Positions 6,779 to 13,843 of a stretch of 64,000 bases of DNA are shown piece after piece. The stretch is from Candidatus Nitronereus thalassa (GTDB lineage: Bacteria; Nitrospirota; Nitrospiria; Nitrospirales; UBA8639), in the NCBI RefSeq assembly GCF_032191465.1, contig NZ_JAQOUE010000001.1:310001-374000 (forward strand). Reading direction: 5' to 3'. The notes below the pieces were generated by a model. It searched no databases. It had not been told where the DNA came from and saw nothing but the letters and a program-made list of their open reading frames with translations. Each line of letters opens with the position of its first letter. Position 1 is the stretch's first letter. The position numbers and the translations under genes were made by a program.

Positions 6779-7429
6779 CTATGGCGAGTGATGCCATGTC
6801 GGTTTGATTTTCGCGAAGGCCAACACGAACCCTGTCGTAAGTATGGCCCCGGCTAGGGCACAGGCCATGTCTTTCTGCGCGTCCCATTCATCACCCTGCA
6901 TGCCGAGGTAGGCCGAACCTAATTCAGGGCTCACCATTTCGGCCACAATCGATTCCAGTACTTCGAACAATCCGCTCTTTGCGAGTATGACACACACCGC
7001 CAGGCCGTAAGCCCAGGGGCCTTGCACTCCCCCAAAACGAACGAGCAGTTCACGAATTGGCAAGACGAGAAGAAGCCCGTAGGAAAAGTGCGCGATGCGG
7101 TCGAAGGGGTTACGGCTGAGATGAAACACATCTTGCAACCAGAATCCTGCTGGCACTTGGGCATAGGTGTAATGTGCGCCGATGGCATGAAGGGTCATAA
7201 ACAGGGCCAGGAGTACATAGGATAGGTTGGAAAAATTAAACCGGCGGTAACTCACGACTAGCCCAACGACCAGGGCGATGGCTAGAATATTTTCCAGCAT
7301 CCAATCTTTCCGGTCGACCGGGTCAATGGCTGTCACGATCCAGCACAACAGGTACCAGGCCAGCAGCATATGCGGAAGGCGTGATCTGGTCCTCAACTTG
7401 TTGTTGTGAGAGGCGCCGATGGCTGCCAT
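6779..7429 (-). CDS. YjdF/DUF2238 family membrane protein (copy 2)
   Basis: 216 residues with about six hydrophobic helices. Family signatures are clear: LHAIGAHYTYAQVP, NPFDRIAHFSYGLL, FEVLES and YLGMQGDEWDAQKDM. The biochemical role of DUF2238/YjdF proteins is not established; they are inner-membrane proteins. It starts one base after the stop of its paralogue (TGA-T-ATG), so the two are almost certainly cotranscribed. Its 3' end is convergent with the frameshifted gene upstream. Confidence 0.88.
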   Translation of the reverse strand: MAAIGASHNNKLRTRSRLPHMLLAWYLLCWIVTAIDPVDRKDWMLENILAIALVVGLVVSYRRFNFSNLSYVLLALFMTLHAIGAHYTYAQVPAGFWLQDVFHLSRNPFDRIAHFSYGLLLVLPIRELLVRFGGVQGPWAYGLAVCVILAKSGLFEVLESIVAEMVSPELGSAYLGMQGDEWDAQKDMACALAGAILTTGFVLAFAKIKPTWHHSP

Positions 7430-7430
7430 A

Positions 7431-8114
7431 TCAGAAGGGATGTTGTGCCGTGGTATCGGCCGGCAGGGTTGGGCGGGACGATAATTTACGGAAGAAGCGA
7501 CTTCCGAGGAGGAGCATCATGCAGAGTAATGAACCGTAAAGGGCGGCTTCCATGTCGTGTTGTGCATCCCAGATATCTCCCTGAGACCCAAGGTAGGTGA
7601 TGCCGAGTTCCGGATGTAAGGCTTGGGTCGCCCAGGCTTCGATGATTTCCCACAAGGCGCTCAATCCTAGGACCGTGATCACCGGCAGATAGTACACCAC
7701 CCAACCGCGCACATGAGCGACAAATCGAAACGCCTCTTCGATAGGATAGGCCAGGAGAAACCCAAAGCTAAAGTGCACGATGCGATCAAAGTGATTGCGC
7801 CCGAGATCCAAACCCTGATCTAGCCAGGACCCCAGCGGAACCTGTGCGTAGGTGTAGTGCGCGCCGATTGAATGGAGGGTCAGAAAGAGGGCAATCAAGA
7901 CATACGAGGCCACCGAAAGCGGCAGCATCCGGCGTGTGGCAATGAGGCTTCCTACGAGGAGTGTAGGGAGAATGCTAGAGTATAGCCAAAATTCCGGATC
8001 TGCCGGCATGTATGCGGTCCACACCGAGAGCAGGACGTACCAAACGAGCAGACCCTTCAACAATAATGTGTTATTACCCATGACAGAGCTTTCAATAATT
8101 CCGGATGATCCCAA
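7431..8114 (-). CDS. YjdF/DUF2238 family membrane protein (copy 1)
   Basis: 227 residues from the first possible start; an ATG 11 codons in (at 8081, MGNNTLLLKGLLVWYV) would place the first membrane helix right at the N-terminus and may be the true start. It carries the same motifs as its downstream neighbour: LHSIGAHYTYAQVP, NHFDRIVHFSFGFLL, WEIIEAW and YLGSQGDIWDAQHDM. The two genes form a tandem duplication that has diverged considerably, suggesting related but not identical roles. Function of the family is unknown. Confidence 0.87.
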   Translation of the reverse strand: MGSSGIIESSVMGNNTLLLKGLLVWYVLLSVWTAYMPADPEFWLYSSILPTLLVGSLIATRRMLPLSVASYVLIALFLTLHSIGAHYTYAQVPLGSWLDQGLDLGRNHFDRIVHFSFGFLLAYPIEEAFRFVAHVRGWVVYYLPVITVLGLSALWEIIEAWATQALHPELGITYLGSQGDIWDAQHDMEAALYGSLLCMMLLLGSRFFRKLSSRPTLPADTTAQHPF

Positions 8115-8753: not shown

Positions 8754-8888
8754 TGAGTCTTTATGGACGGGAGGGTTCGTATTGGTGTTGCGGGTTCAAC
8801 CGAATGATCTCTGAGTGGGATTGTCTATAGGATCATGCTATTCTACGAAGAGAGTTTTTGGGATTGGTTGTCGGTATTGGTCGTAATT

Positions 8889-9386
8889 ATGCTCTATGCT
8901 GCCTATGGCTCCAACTTGCATCCTGACCGATTGCGGGAACGCGTTCCGTCTGCCTGTCTGCGCGGTAGTGCGGTATTGGAGGGATGGGGATTGCGATTTG
9001 AAAAGCGAAGTCCGGATGGGTCGAGTAAATGTAGCGTTGTTCCCAGCTCAGAAATTCTTCATGTCGCTGTTTATGAGATGCTTCCTGCTGAAAAGCCAAT
9101 TCTTGATCAGTTTGAACATGCGGGTATCGGTTACGTTGAACAAGAAATTCATGTCCCAGGGTTTGGTACTTGTTTCTGGTATGTAGCCCATGAGTCTCAT
9201 GTTGATCCTCACCTTCGCCCGTATGGTTGGTATAAGGAGTTGGTGCTTGTTGGTTGTGGGCATCATCAATTCCCTTCGGACTATGTCGAACGAATTCGAC
9301 AAGTTCCGCATATAGAAGACCCCGACGTTCAGCGCCATGAGAAATGGATGAGTTTGGTCAATCACATTCAACATTCTTCCTTGTAA
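8889..9386 (+). CDS. Gamma-glutamylcyclotransferase-like protein (GGCT/AIG2 fold)
   Basis: I start at the ATG at 8889 (MLYAAYGSNLHP), because the YGSNL motif sits within a few residues of the N-terminus in this family; an ATG at 8835 would add 18 hydrophobic residues of no family character. The 165-residue protein has the phosphate-binding-like loop YGSNL, the strand SSEILHVAVYEM and the acidic residue in LDQFEHAGIGYVEQE, which aligns with the catalytic Glu position of GGCT folds. It probably acts on gamma-glutamyl amines or peptides, releasing 5-oxoproline. Glutaminase follows after 7 nt, so the pair is likely one unit dealing with gamma-glutamyl or glutamine breakdown (inference). Confidence 0.78.
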   Translation: MLYAAYGSNLHPDRLRERVPSACLRGSAVLEGWGLRFEKRSPDGSSKCSVVPSSEILHVAVYEMLPAEKPILDQFEHAGIGYVEQEIHVPGFGTCFWYVAHESHVDPHLRPYGWYKELVLVGCGHHQFPSDYVERIRQVPHIEDPDVQRHEKWMSLVNHIQHSSL

Positions 9387-9393
9387 GTTCACT

Positions 9394-10308
9394 ATGGACT
9401 ATCAAAAAGTGTTTTCAGAAATGGCTGCAGAAGTCGATTATATCGAGGATCACGGTAAAGTGCCTTCTTATATTCCGGAGTTGCAAAATGTCGATCCCAA
9501 CAAATTTGGTATCCATCTCACCACCATCGATGGTCAGAATTTTTATTTGGGTGATTCCAATGAAAAATTCTCGATTCAAAGTATCGCCAAGGTGTTCTCC
9601 CTGGTTCTAGCTTTTGGATTAGAAGATGATCGATTATGGGAGAGAGTGGGAGTGGAACCGTCAGGGACACCTTTTAATTCTCTGGTGCAATTGGAATATG
9701 AAAAGGGAATTCCGCGTAATCCGTTTATTAATGCTGGGGCGCTAGTCATTTGTGATATTTTGGTCAGCCGATTAGAGCATCCGAAACGGGAAATCCTTGA
9801 TTTTGTTCGAGGGGTTTCGGGTAATCCTGCAATCGAGTATTGTTCCAGAGTTGCCGAATCAGAAAAGTTAACCAGCTTTACCAATGCGGCGTTGATTAAT
9901 CTGATGAAGGCCTATAGCAATATTCACAATGATATCGATGTGGTGCTGGACGTGTATTTTCATCTCTGCTCCATTGAGATGACTTGTCAGGAACTGGCAC
10001 AGGGATTGTTGTTTCTGGCGAATAACGGCGTGAATCCGTTTGCCGAGAAACGCGTGGTGAGTGAAAGTAAATCCAAACGAATAAATGCCATCATGCAACT
10101 TTGCGGATTTTATGACGAGGCCGGGGAGTTTTCCTTTAAAGTGGGGTTGCCAGGAAAGAGTGGCGTGGGTGGTGGAATTATTGCCATTTATCCTGGGCAC
10201 TATAGTATTGCGGTGTGGAGCCCCAAGTTGAATGCGAAAGGGAACTCGTATAAGGGTATGAGAATTCTTGAATTTTTAACGACTCGCACGAAAGCTTCCA
10301 TATTTTAA
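9394..10308 (+). CDS. glsA: Glutaminase A
   Basis: 304 residues, standard for the serine-dependent beta-lactamase-like glutaminases that hydrolyse glutamine to glutamate and ammonia in the cytosol. The catalytic SxxK is SIAK in FSIQSIAKVFSLVLAF (about residue 65). Other family blocks are NPFINAGALVICDIL, FLANNGVNPF and GKSGVGGGIIAIYPG. No signal peptide. It follows the cyclotransferase-like gene by 7 nt with no obvious own promoter. The 475-base gap downstream suggests it ends the unit. Confidence 0.95.
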   Translation: MDYQKVFSEMAAEVDYIEDHGKVPSYIPELQNVDPNKFGIHLTTIDGQNFYLGDSNEKFSIQSIAKVFSLVLAFGLEDDRLWERVGVEPSGTPFNSLVQLEYEKGIPRNPFINAGALVICDILVSRLEHPKREILDFVRGVSGNPAIEYCSRVAESEKLTSFTNAALINLMKAYSNIHNDIDVVLDVYFHLCSIEMTCQELAQGLLFLANNGVNPFAEKRVVSESKSKRINAIMQLCGFYDEAGEFSFKVGLPGKSGVGGGIIAIYPGHYSIAVWSPKLNAKGNSYKGMRILEFLTTRTKASIF

Positions 10309-10783
10309 CCGGCCTGTTTCCTGCCTATAGGATTCGGGTTTTCTCCTTCCTCTGTTTTTTCTTAGGATTAGCATCTCCGAATTATCGTGATGGTTTCTCG
10401 GTGTATCTGATCGGATACTCTCGTGTATCTGTTCATGTACAGCATTCGTGCATGGTGAATGGATACACCATAGTCTGTTGGTCGCCTGCGAGAGTTTTTC
10501 TCCTTGTATGACTGGTTTTACGCAGCAGGAGAGGGTCTAGAGAATTGCACTGTTATATTGGCACCGAAATTGTATCTTTAAATTATTGGCAGGACTTATC
10601 AAGAAGGTTATACTGGCGCCCACTTAGTGGGACCTAGTATAAGGAATCAGAGGATTCTTTCATTGATCGCCATGGATGGCATGTGAGTGCGACCTTCCGA
10701 CCGAAGAACTTCCCGCATGATTTTATTTTTCACTGTCTTCCTGGCTCAGGTCGCGTCTTTTAACTAGAAAGGACTGTGGTCTC
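10309..10783. other. Long intergenic region with inverted repeats
   Basis: 475 bases before the 1019-residue membrane protein. It contains a strong imperfect hairpin (10608-10642, separate entry), a pair of matching inverted octamers GGTGTATC and GATACACC about 50 bases apart near 10400-10470, and a sigma-54-like string (TGGCAC-N5-TTGTA, 10555-10570) that lacks the GC dinucleotide of the -12 element. No coding frame is convincing. Confidence 0.5.
10608..10642. repeat. Imperfect inverted repeat / hairpin
   Basis: The left arm TTATACTGGCGCCCAC and right arm GTGGGACCTAGTATAA are separated by TTA. Reverse-complementing the right arm gives 13 of 16 matches, and one of the three mismatches is a G-T wobble in RNA. 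A smaller hairpin GAATC-AGAG-GATTC follows at 10645-10658. There is no U-tract, so it is not a standard terminator. It lies about 140 bases upstream of the membrane-protein start and could be a leader-RNA structure or operator. Confidence 0.6.
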
Positions 10784-13700
10784 ATGCCTGATCAGCAGGA
10801 AGAGAAACCCAAATTGCCACTCACCAGCATGTTGGCGTTGGTGGCGGTGGTAAGCGGTCTTCTCGTTTCACAGATCCCCTTGAAAACCTCACGGCCCATC
10901 GGGAAGGAAGCCGATAACCTTGTGCTTGTTGGCGATGACCGTGTGCAATCCCGGCTCTGGCAGGATCCGTTCGAAGCCGTGGATGACCATTTGGTCAAAG
11001 AACGGCAGCAGGCCAAGGAAAATAATGTTTCGCATGAAGGCCATCATGCGTTAGAGGATTTAGCCCATGTGATTCATCGTCTTGCGCCAGAAAATCCTTC
11101 ATTTCTCATCCTGCCCGTCATGACGGATGGAAATCCTTATTCCAAGGGAGTAGAAACACGATTGCGTCATCGATATGCGCTGGTCTCTGCTCTGGGGGCG
11201 TCAGAATATCTTCCCGAGGCGTCGCAATACGTTCGGTTTTTTAGGTGGAAAAGGCAACCCTGCGTAAAGTCATCCTGTGCGCCGTTGATTGTTCCGGTGG
11301 AATGGTACAAACCCAAACCGAGTCTGGGGCCTATGGCACCACCGGTGTTAATTCTGTGGCTCAAGGGGCAAGATTTTAGTGAAAAGCCCTTGGCGGGATT
11401 GACTCAACTCATCAAGGATCTGAAAAAAAATTTTAACCAGGTCGAGCATCAATTTCGGATTCTTGGGCCTCGAGGGTCGGGTGGGTTATCGGCAATGGTC
11501 AAAGAGGCCGATCAATTTCCGGATGACTATGAAATATTACACAATGTTGAAATCTTCTCTTCCTGGGCCACCGCGGACGACATCTTTTTAATCGGTGATC
11601 CTCCTGGTGAATCCCGTATATTGGAAAGCCAACAACCGATCATTGAATCTGTACGGTCCTTGCCGTTGGCACCGGGTAAAGTAGAGAAAATTTTTAATAA
11701 GGCCCATATTCCCTTCTATCGGACCATTGGCACGGATACGATGTTGGCGGAACAGTTGGTGAAGGAATTATCGCTTCGGAACGTCAATCTCACTGAGTCA
11801 TGTTCGGATTCACAATGTCCTCATCATGTGGCTCTGATCTCCGAATGGGATTCGTTGTACGGTCGTGTGTTACCTCGTACTTTCGTGGCTGTGGCTCAAA
11901 ATCAAGGAAGTGGAAAACCGAGTCCGCAATTGGATGACCATATCAATACGCTTCGTCGAGATATTTGGCCGACCTGGGCACATCATTTTTCCTATTTAGG
12001 TGGTCTTGACGGAGAGCTTCCTCCGAAGGATAGCGATAAAGGGGGAAAAGCGAGTTCGTCAAAAGATAAAGGGGGAGACAACACGAGTCGTTTGTCAAGG
12101 GGCTTGGAGCTTCCCGAAGGCCGTGGGCAATTAGATTATATTCGTCGGCTCGTCAAGACCTTGCAAGATGCCGAAGCGAATATTCCCGGAGGGTTTAAGG
12201 CCATTGGCGTACTGGGCAGTGATGTGTATGACAAGCTGTTGATTCTCCAGGCTGTGCGCAACAGTTTCCCTCAGGCGATTTTTTTTACGACTGATCTCGA
12301 TGCGCAATTGATACATCCTCAACAATGGTCATGGACACGAAATTTGGTGATTGCCTCTCACTTTGGTTTGGAACTTCGGCGCCACCTTCAAGAGCCCATT
12401 CCACCGTTTCGGGATAGTTATCAAACGGCTTTTTTCTTTACGGTCTTGCAAGCCCTTAAGGCGAAAGACAAGCGAAAAGTCATCACGGATGTTCCTCCGC
12501 GGGTTTATGAAATTGGCCGTCACGGCCCCTTTGATTTGAGTGCCTTGGATGCCCCCAATGCGCCTCCGGGTCTTCATCCAGAGCGGACCGATCTGGATCC
12601 AGACACAGGCCATCCCTCCTCTATGAGTGTTTTTACTCTCCTCACGATTGCTGGGGCCTGTGCACTCATTTTTTTATGTTTCATGCTCTTAAGTAGCCAA
12701 GTGTGGACAGCGTTTATTGGCCTTGTGACGAGTTGGTCGTTTTGGTTGACGACAGTAATCGCCATTGCCATGGCAATAGGTTTAGATTTATGGGCCATGA
12801 GCGATGGGGCAGAGGGCGAACCGTTTGTGGTGACCGAAGGCATTAGCGTTTGGCCAACGCAAGCTCTTCGCCTTCTCGCATTTTTATTAAGTGGAGGATT
12901 TTTTATCTATGCGGGATGGAGTTTGCGCAATAATGAAATCCAGTTGCGTGATAAATTTCCCTTACCCGAATTGTCTAAGGATTGTCCGCAAGGGCCGTGG
13001 TATTCCCGGTTCATTGGGATTCATGGGTGGTGTCCAGAAGTGGCAAAGCCAAGGACGATTCAACAATTATGGCTGGACTATATGCGGTTGGGACGCTGGG
13101 ATAATCGATGGTTGCGCTATTTCCTGCAATCTCTCCTCTACCTTCTGTTTGGCGGGTTATTAATGCTGTATTTTGGTCCACCCCATACTCCTTGTCGTGG
13201 GCCTGCCTGCTTTTCCATAAATACAATGTTTCTGATTTTCAGTGTCTTGGGAATGGTATTATTGATTTTCTTTGTGGTAGATGCGACGCGTTTGTGTCGG
13301 CGATTGATCAAACATCTTGTCGTAGGATCGATCCAATGGCCGAAAGAATTTTTGGAACACGAAGCCCGGAAGCGAGGAGTCGATAGAACATGTGTGCACG
13401 AATGGCTGTGCATCGATTTTATCGCGGAACGGACGGCGGTGATTGGCCACCTCATCTATTATCCCTTTGTGATTGTCTTTCTCATGGCTGTGGCCCGACA
13501 TCCGTATTTTGATCATTGGGATCTTCCTGTAGGCCTTGCCATTCTAATTTTTTTGAATATCGCGTATGCCTTCGGAAACGGAGTAGCGTTACGTCGGTCA
13601 GCAGAGCAGGCAAGACGAGTGTCCCTTGATCAATTGAATGCACGGTTACTTCCGTTGAACGATCAAGTTCCGGTTGAAAAAGAATCCAAGCGTCATATTG

Positions 13701-13843
13701 AGCGGGCAATCGAGGCCATCAAGCATAACCGAAAGGGAGCATTCATGCCCCTTGCCGCGCACCCAATTGTGGGAGCGATCGCGTTACCCTCGGGCGGGTA
13801 TGGGTTTATTCTTCTGGCGGAATATCTCTCCACCGCTTTTTAA
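10784..13843 (+). CDS. Large unrecognised membrane protein with predicted extracytoplasmic domain
   Basis: 1019 residues. One helix near the N-terminus (about 13-33) is followed by about 570 hydrophilic residues, then roughly seven or eight membrane helices from about 615 to the end. The soluble part has recurring alpha/beta features that I read as a periplasmic-binding-protein or receptor-like double Rossmann fold: RTIGTDTMLAEQL (about 315), HVALISEWDSLYGRVLP (about 350), HHFSYLGGLDGELP (about 405), IGVLGSDVYDKLLILQ (about 478), FFTTDLDAQLIHP (about 500) and NLVIASHFGLEL (about 520). A Lys/Gly/Ser-rich linker lies at about 420-435. I cannot name a function; a membrane receptor or sensor is an inference from fold impression only. 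The next gene follows after 37 nt. Confidence 0.85.
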   Translation: MPDQQEEKPKLPLTSMLALVAVVSGLLVSQIPLKTSRPIGKEADNLVLVGDDRVQSRLWQDPFEAVDDHLVKERQQAKENNVSHEGHHALEDLAHVIHRLAPENPSFLILPVMTDGNPYSKGVETRLRHRYALVSALGASEYLPEASQYVRFFRWKRQPCVKSSCAPLIVPVEWYKPKPSLGPMAPPVLILWLKGQDFSEKPLAGLTQLIKDLKKNFNQVEHQFRILGPRGSGGLSAMVKEADQFPDDYEILHNVEIFSSWATADDIFLIGDPPGESRILESQQPIIESVRSLPLAPGKVEKIFNKAHIPFYRTIGTDTMLAEQLVKELSLRNVNLTESCSDSQCPHHVALISEWDSLYGRVLPRTFVAVAQNQGSGKPSPQLDDHINTLRRDIWPTWAHHFSYLGGLDGELPPKDSDKGGKASSSKDKGGDNTSRLSRGLELPEGRGQLDYIRRLVKTLQDAEANIPGGFKAIGVLGSDVYDKLLILQAVRNSFPQAIFFTTDLDAQLIHPQQWSWTRNLVIASHFGLELRRHLQEPIPPFRDSYQTAFFFTVLQALKAKDKRKVITDVPPRVYEIGRHGPFDLSALDAPNAPPGLHPERTDLDPDTGHPSSMSVFTLLTIAGACALIFLCFMLLSSQVWTAFIGLVTSWSFWLTTVIAIAMAIGLDLWAMSDGAEGEPFVVTEGISVWPTQALRLLAFLLSGGFFIYAGWSLRNNEIQLRDKFPLPELSKDCPQGPWYSRFIGIHGWCPEVAKPRTIQQLWLDYMRLGRWDNRWLRYFLQSLLYLLFGGLLMLYFGPPHTPCRGPACFSINTMFLIFSVLGMVLLIFFVVDATRLCRRLIKHLVVGSIQWPKEFLEHEARKRGVDRTCVHEWLCIDFIAERTAVIGHLIYYPFVIVFLMAVARHPYFDHWDLPVGLAILIFLNIAYAFGNGVALRRSAEQARRVSLDQLNARLLPLNDQVPVEKESKRHIERAIEAIKHNRKGAFMPLAAHPIVGAIALPSGGYGFILLAEYLSTAF

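Follow-up and report, generated by a model that had tools for sequence, protein, structure and literature searches.

What does a protein of 1019 residues do when it joins a large soluble domain to a bundle of membrane helices and belongs to no named family? The question is raised by a gene in the window, the whole stretch of 64,000 nucleotides analysed here, where computation finds an intact open reading frame that begins with ATG and occurs once in the 4.0-Mb Nitrospirota genome of the host.

10768 to 10773, plus strand: Shine-Dalgarno-like AAAGGA, 10 nt 5' of the ATG, read from the sequence
10784 to 13843, plus strand: the gene, 1019 aa, stop included

Neither as a single sequence nor as a profile did the protein give a credible match to Pfam, NCBIfam or PADLOC models or to PDB sequences, and the initial annotation, which could not assign it to a named family, stands in this respect. 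Scattered matches of one or two members to Sdh_cyt, COX15-CtaA and similar models were rejected as chance membrane matches. The family itself keeps its full length at 30-71% identity in dozens of species from several phyla and, with more than 50 invariant columns in an alignment of 45 sequences, its conservation is, by this measure, far beyond chance. The members from Nitrosospira and Nitrosovibrio (L058-L083) share 42-47% identity with the window protein, as against about 30% for the second-clade members of Nitrospira.

A scan of GTDB representatives confirmed 335 family loci, and the best 80 of these belong to Nitrospira and other Nitrospirales, Nitrosospira/Nitrosovibrio, Nitrosomonas, Nitrococcus, Variovorax, Rivibacter, Methylobacter, Scalindua, Desulfobacterium and a few other MAGs. 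The family is present in 21 of 60 near relatives of the host genome and in 64 of 296 genomes sampled from the host phylum, the carriers being almost all of the host's own order. It is rare when the class of Variovorax is sampled evenly (5/274 genomes, two of the five with a C-terminal fragment only), and no matches were obtained in the plasmids or phages searched. Most named genomes checked carry one copy; Nitrospira defluvii carries two. In a quick tree, in which long branches are present, the Nitrosospira sequences adjoin a Nitrospira clade within the Nitrospirota part, a placement suggesting that the gene has probably moved between ammonia- and nitrite-oxidising bacteria. The sequence of L075, from a contig labelled as uncultured Nitrosospira, groups together with its neighbours inside the Nitrospira clade, and thus the label of this bin is probably wrong.

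The general plan of the protein had been read as a single N-terminal helix, a long soluble part and seven or eight C-terminal helices. Mean hydropathy of 40 homologues agrees with this plan, giving a helix at residues 11-29, about 580 soluble residues, seven strong C-terminal helices and a weaker last one, and AlphaFold2 places one helix and then seven more behind the ectodomain, eight in all, the final one being split. The two motifs that had been quoted are also present, at residues 475-489 and 500-512. The features of the N-terminal part, all on the plus strand, are as follows.

10814 to 10870, plus strand: N-terminal membrane anchor helix, residues 11-29, N-in (hydropathy; AlphaFold2 helix 13-30, with low confidence there)
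10871 to 12613, plus strand: periplasmic ectodomain, residues 30-610 (hydropathy, topology, AlphaFold2)
11156 to 12556, plus strand: type I binding-protein / Venus flytrap core, residues 125-591 (Foldseek, collinear profile alignment)
11465 to 11479, plus strand: GPxxS loop, residues 228-232, with S232 invariant and at the position of the LIVBP ligand-loop serine
11840 to 11866, plus strand: SEWDxxYGR motif, residues 353-361, with Y359 aligned with the tyrosine of LIVBP D..YG
11999 to 12124, plus strand: disordered charged loop, residues 406-447 (pLDDT <50)
12206 to 12304, plus strand: GVLGSDVYDKLLILQ...FFTTDLDA, residues 475-507, strand-helix-strand of the second lobe

The ectodomain had been called binding-protein-like, and its predicted model very probably has the type I periplasmic binding protein, or Venus flytrap, fold. 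With the full AlphaFold2 model, Foldseek gave three matches below 0.001, each with a probability of 1.00: mGluR3 at E 1.9e-5, the calcium-sensing receptor at 1.2e-4 and, at 5.3e-4, a protein of the LIVBP type that binds branched-chain amino acids. When its profile was aligned with 21 proteins of the Peripla_BP_6 type, residues 125-591 ran collinear, in the same register each time, which puts S232 at the G..S loop of LIVBP proteins and Y359 at their D..YG motif; this alignment supports the flytrap fold without proving it. The gene had no match to Peripla_BP_6 (PF13458) at E <= 1, and the hhalign values of the ectodomain against LIVBP (E 0.005-0.027) fall within the null set of unrelated families, and therefore the claim of a flytrap fold rests on structure.

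In mGlu1, residues Ser165, Thr188, Tyr236 and Asp318 contact the amino-acid groups of the ligand (PMC2680970). Their candidate counterparts are S232, T263, Y359 and D504, kept in 45, 41, 44 and 44 of 45 family sequences, respectively, with T263 and D504 equated by motif position only. The ligand of the flytrap is perhaps an amino acid or a derivative. These positions also bear on another explanation, that of a non-sensing scaffold in which the flytrap fold no longer binds a ligand and serves protein-protein or envelope contacts. Such a role would suit an ectodomain that is larger than a standard binding protein, having extra helices at its N-terminus and a disordered loop of 40 residues, and that carries an invariant RLWxDP segment (residues 57-62) outside the flytrap core; pure scaffolding, however, would not require the candidate amino-acid contacts to be among the most conserved positions, and the scaffold is quite improbable.

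The membrane bundle was modelled alone by AlphaFold2 on 66 homologues (pLDDT 86.9, pTM 0.81), which, together with the topology prediction, gives the following helices.

12629 to 12691, plus strand: first membrane helix after the ectodomain, residues 616-636, out to in (hydropathy, topology, AlphaFold2)
12734 to 12802, plus strand: S1, residues 651-673 (bundle model, topology)
12851 to 12955, plus strand: S2, residues 690-724 (bundle model)
13097 to 13174, plus strand: S3, residues 772-797 (bundle model)
13202 to 13324, plus strand: S4, long, residues 807-847, extending into the cytoplasm (bundle model)
13385 to 13492, plus strand: S5, residues 868-903 (bundle model)
13529 to 13648, plus strand: S6, long, residues 916-955 (bundle model)
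13670 to 13723, plus strand: S7a, cytoplasmic, residues 963-980 (bundle model, topology)
13763 to 13837, plus strand: S7b, presumed pore helix, residues 994-1018 (bundle model, local confidence low, 59-67)

In 28 sequences, lysine plus arginine make up 15-17% of the cytoplasmic loops versus 2.5-11% outside, a positive-inside pattern which predicts that S1 begins in the cytoplasm and that S7b ends outside. S4, S5 and S6 measure 41, 36 and 40 residues in the model, and the inner loops S2-S3 (about 47 residues) and S4-S5 (about 20) are set against outer loops of 16, 9 and 12, the S6-S7a connection being short (7). Residues G686, S688, W690, P691, R778, R805, D910 and W912 are invariant. A conserved GAFxPF motif (residues 985-990) precedes S7b, which contains Pro-Gly-Gly and is the least confident part of the bundle model.

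When the bundle was compared by Foldseek with 350,542 PDB chains, ranks 1-18 were taken up entirely by gustatory receptors, odorant receptors and Orco of insects, with probabilities up to 1.00. The first match outside this group came at rank 19 with a probability of 0.07, and among the matches listed no outsider exceeded 0.35, which leaves the 7TMIC group (insect gustatory/odorant receptors, GRL, DUF3537, PHTF) as the sole source of solved structures found at high probability among those matches. A full-length model built from a different alignment retrieved the same group of insect receptors, and a control search of a viral structure library with the bundle gave no match above 0.18.

7TMICs have been judged by helix number, orientation, loop lengths, anchor helices and a split S7 (Benton and Himmel, 2023; PMC9998090). 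The family bundle has seven core transmembrane helices, S1-S7, plus one extra helix before them; the core is predicted to start inside the cell and to end outside, the intracellular loops are longer than the extracellular ones, the long TM4-TM6 form an anchor into the cytoplasm, and TM7 is split into 7a and 7b, the latter at low confidence. S6, S7a and S7b span 40, 18 and 25 residues with gaps of 7 and 13, close to the values of BmGr9 (45, 15 and 21, with gaps of 5 and 14; PMC11100771). The bundle thus resembles a 7TMIC in its seven helices after a cytoplasmic start, its long S4 and S6 and its S7b as last helix, and differs in being bacterial and in carrying in front an additional crossing helix and a 580-residue periplasmic flytrap. 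It also differs in its sequence, since hhalign found no similarity to two Orcos (probability 0.8%) and the GR motif TYhhhhhQF is absent from S7b, although divergent 7TMICs have been accepted without sequence homology or this motif (PMC9998090).

The ranking of the insect receptors is specific, but their superposition on the bundle is poor. The best E-value against insect receptors was 0.011, the rmsd was about 10 A or more, and the TM-scores, as reported by Foldseek from its own alignments, were 0.21-0.41. The published packing criterion for 7TMICs is a TM-score to Orco of about 0.6 or more, with unrelated proteins at or below 0.34 (PMC9998090). In view of the low TM-scores, this E-value and the lack of detectable sequence homology, membership of the superfamily is not established. 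In its model the bundle nevertheless appears to have the build of a 7TMIC and may function as one, a real 7TMIC-like packing being fairly probable.

The low TM-scores leave the fold of the bundle open, and on this ground the protein could also be a transporter or a membrane enzyme that captures its substrate through a domain of its own, its eight-helix bundle having then come to resemble insect receptors by convergence. Uptake is the usual role of binding-protein domains, and the invariant polar residues of the bundle could be catalytic or substrate-binding; however, no transporter or enzyme family was matched by sequence or structure, and no ATPase, permease or pathway gene is conserved beside the family genes in the neighbourhood survey, so that we regard this explanation as unlikely.

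The same survey, which the initial annotation had put forward as a way to conserved partners, revealed none. The neighbours of the homologues are clade-specific housekeeping genes, read from their sequences as SelO, esterase, ABC-F, NnrS and DnaE, and no neighbouring gene family is common to all lineages; therefore the protein probably works without a co-encoded partner. In the window, a gamma-glutamyl-cyclotransferase-like gene (below the Pfam cut-off) followed by a glutaminase lies directly upstream on the same strand (8835-10308, plus strand). The glutaminase is a tempting partner for an amino-acid sensor, but it adjoins no other homologue examined, and the pair was not found beside the homologues. 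Farther upstream, two adjoining DUF2238 membrane proteins (6779-8114, minus strand) appear to be a tandem duplicate.

The best reading of the whole protein is an autonomous ligand-gated, channel-like receptor, to which we give a probability of roughly 0.4. The initial annotation, which inferred a ligand-sensing receptor fused to a membrane bundle, is thereby supported in part. The protein would be a chemoreceptor of the inner membrane, laid out as a ligand-gated channel, in which the uncleaved N-terminal helix and the helix at 616-636 would hold the flytrap in the periplasm. The flytrap would close on a small molecule, the likeliest ligand being an amino acid or a derivative, and its closure would be passed on to a bundle of seven helices that follow one another, and cross the membrane, as in insect gustatory and odorant receptors. 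This bundle would lie N-in, with the long helices S4-S6 and S7a as its cytoplasmic anchor and S7b as its pore helix, and would assemble as an oligomer and open an ion path. Computation shows the intact gene, its family, the flytrap fold, the number and topology of the helices and the preference of Foldseek for insect receptor structures; we infer the ligand class, the oligomer and the ion conduction. Insect gustatory and odorant receptors are tetramers. The protein lacks a signalling domain in the cytoplasm, and no partner gene is conserved beside it, which is what an autonomous channel would need. Channel activity as such is conceivable, at somewhat under even odds, and the full proposal, of a prokaryotic insect-chemoreceptor-type fold joined to an amino-acid-type flytrap in an autonomous ion channel widespread among nitrifying bacteria, is more tentative.

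Class C receptors, too, combine an mGluR/CaSR-like flytrap with a membrane bundle (PMC2670285), and the long, conserved cytoplasmic loops would fit a metabotropic-type receptor that passes a conformational change to a cytoplasmic partner and forms no pore. The ectodomain is like class C and LIVBP-type flytraps in fold, in collinearity over residues 125-591 and in plausibly kept amino-acid-site residues, and unlike them in its long inserts and in having no cysteine-rich domain. The bundle is not GPCR-like, and its topology is different, with the last helix ending outside and one more helix behind the ectodomain; in addition, among the 50 matches listed, the searches for the bundle gave no GPCR save one low-probability VPAC1R row in the full-length search, and no partner gene is conserved. 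A metabotropic receptor is thus rather unlikely.

As in ionotropic glutamate receptors, a flytrap would gate the pore of a tetramer in the channel-like receptor, the tetramer being here a presumed one. The pore domain of those receptors is a K-channel-like re-entrant loop with helices, inserted in the ligand domain, whereas here it would be a separate C-terminal helix bundle. The window protein resembles the 7TMR-DISM and 7TMR-HD receptors in being bacterial and in combining seven helices with a sensor domain in the periplasm, but it has a different ectodomain fold and no cytoplasmic enzyme domain, and their Pfam 7TM and sensor domains gave no match at E <= 1 in 28 family members.

If the bundle is a true 7TMIC-type channel, the taste and smell receptors of insects are related to large bacterial proteins whose ligand-binding module is separate and well understood, which would bear on the origin of the 7TMIC fold and provide a bacterial system where a closing flytrap opens a pore unrelated to it. 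The eLife screen reported no 7TMIC from prokaryotes, and a 2024 review cites Himmel et al. (2023) for transfer of 7TMICs from eukaryotes to prokaryotes. A flytrap with an insect-chemoreceptor-type channel would, if true, be a chemosensory architecture without description in the literature searched, where no flytrap-7TMIC fusion was found; Himmel et al. (2023), known through the citing review, may list family members. Even if the likeness is convergent, the family is an unnamed, unannotated, highly conserved receptor-like family of nitrifiers.

Some members depart from the common plan. A search for the C-terminal module in other architectures gave fragments, weak matches (E 4e-4 to 1e-2) and a 133-aa ORF (L155:1973-2371) with the S6-S7 part only, where RxxxFDxW and GAFAPF are kept; this ORF lies between carboxypeptidase-like and transposase-like genes, and no upstream remnant was found. 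A 717-aa member, L124:1258-3411 on the minus strand, is an ectodomain with no membrane bundle behind it, and is a truncation, an assembly fault or a real secreted or anchored form. In a second subfamily of Burkholderiales (L150-L152, 1168-1203 aa), S1 is preceded by additional membrane helices, and in L153, of the Desulfobacterium phylum (1207 aa), some 200 soluble residues separate the first crossing helix from S1, an insert that fits the predicted cytoplasmic position of this junction.
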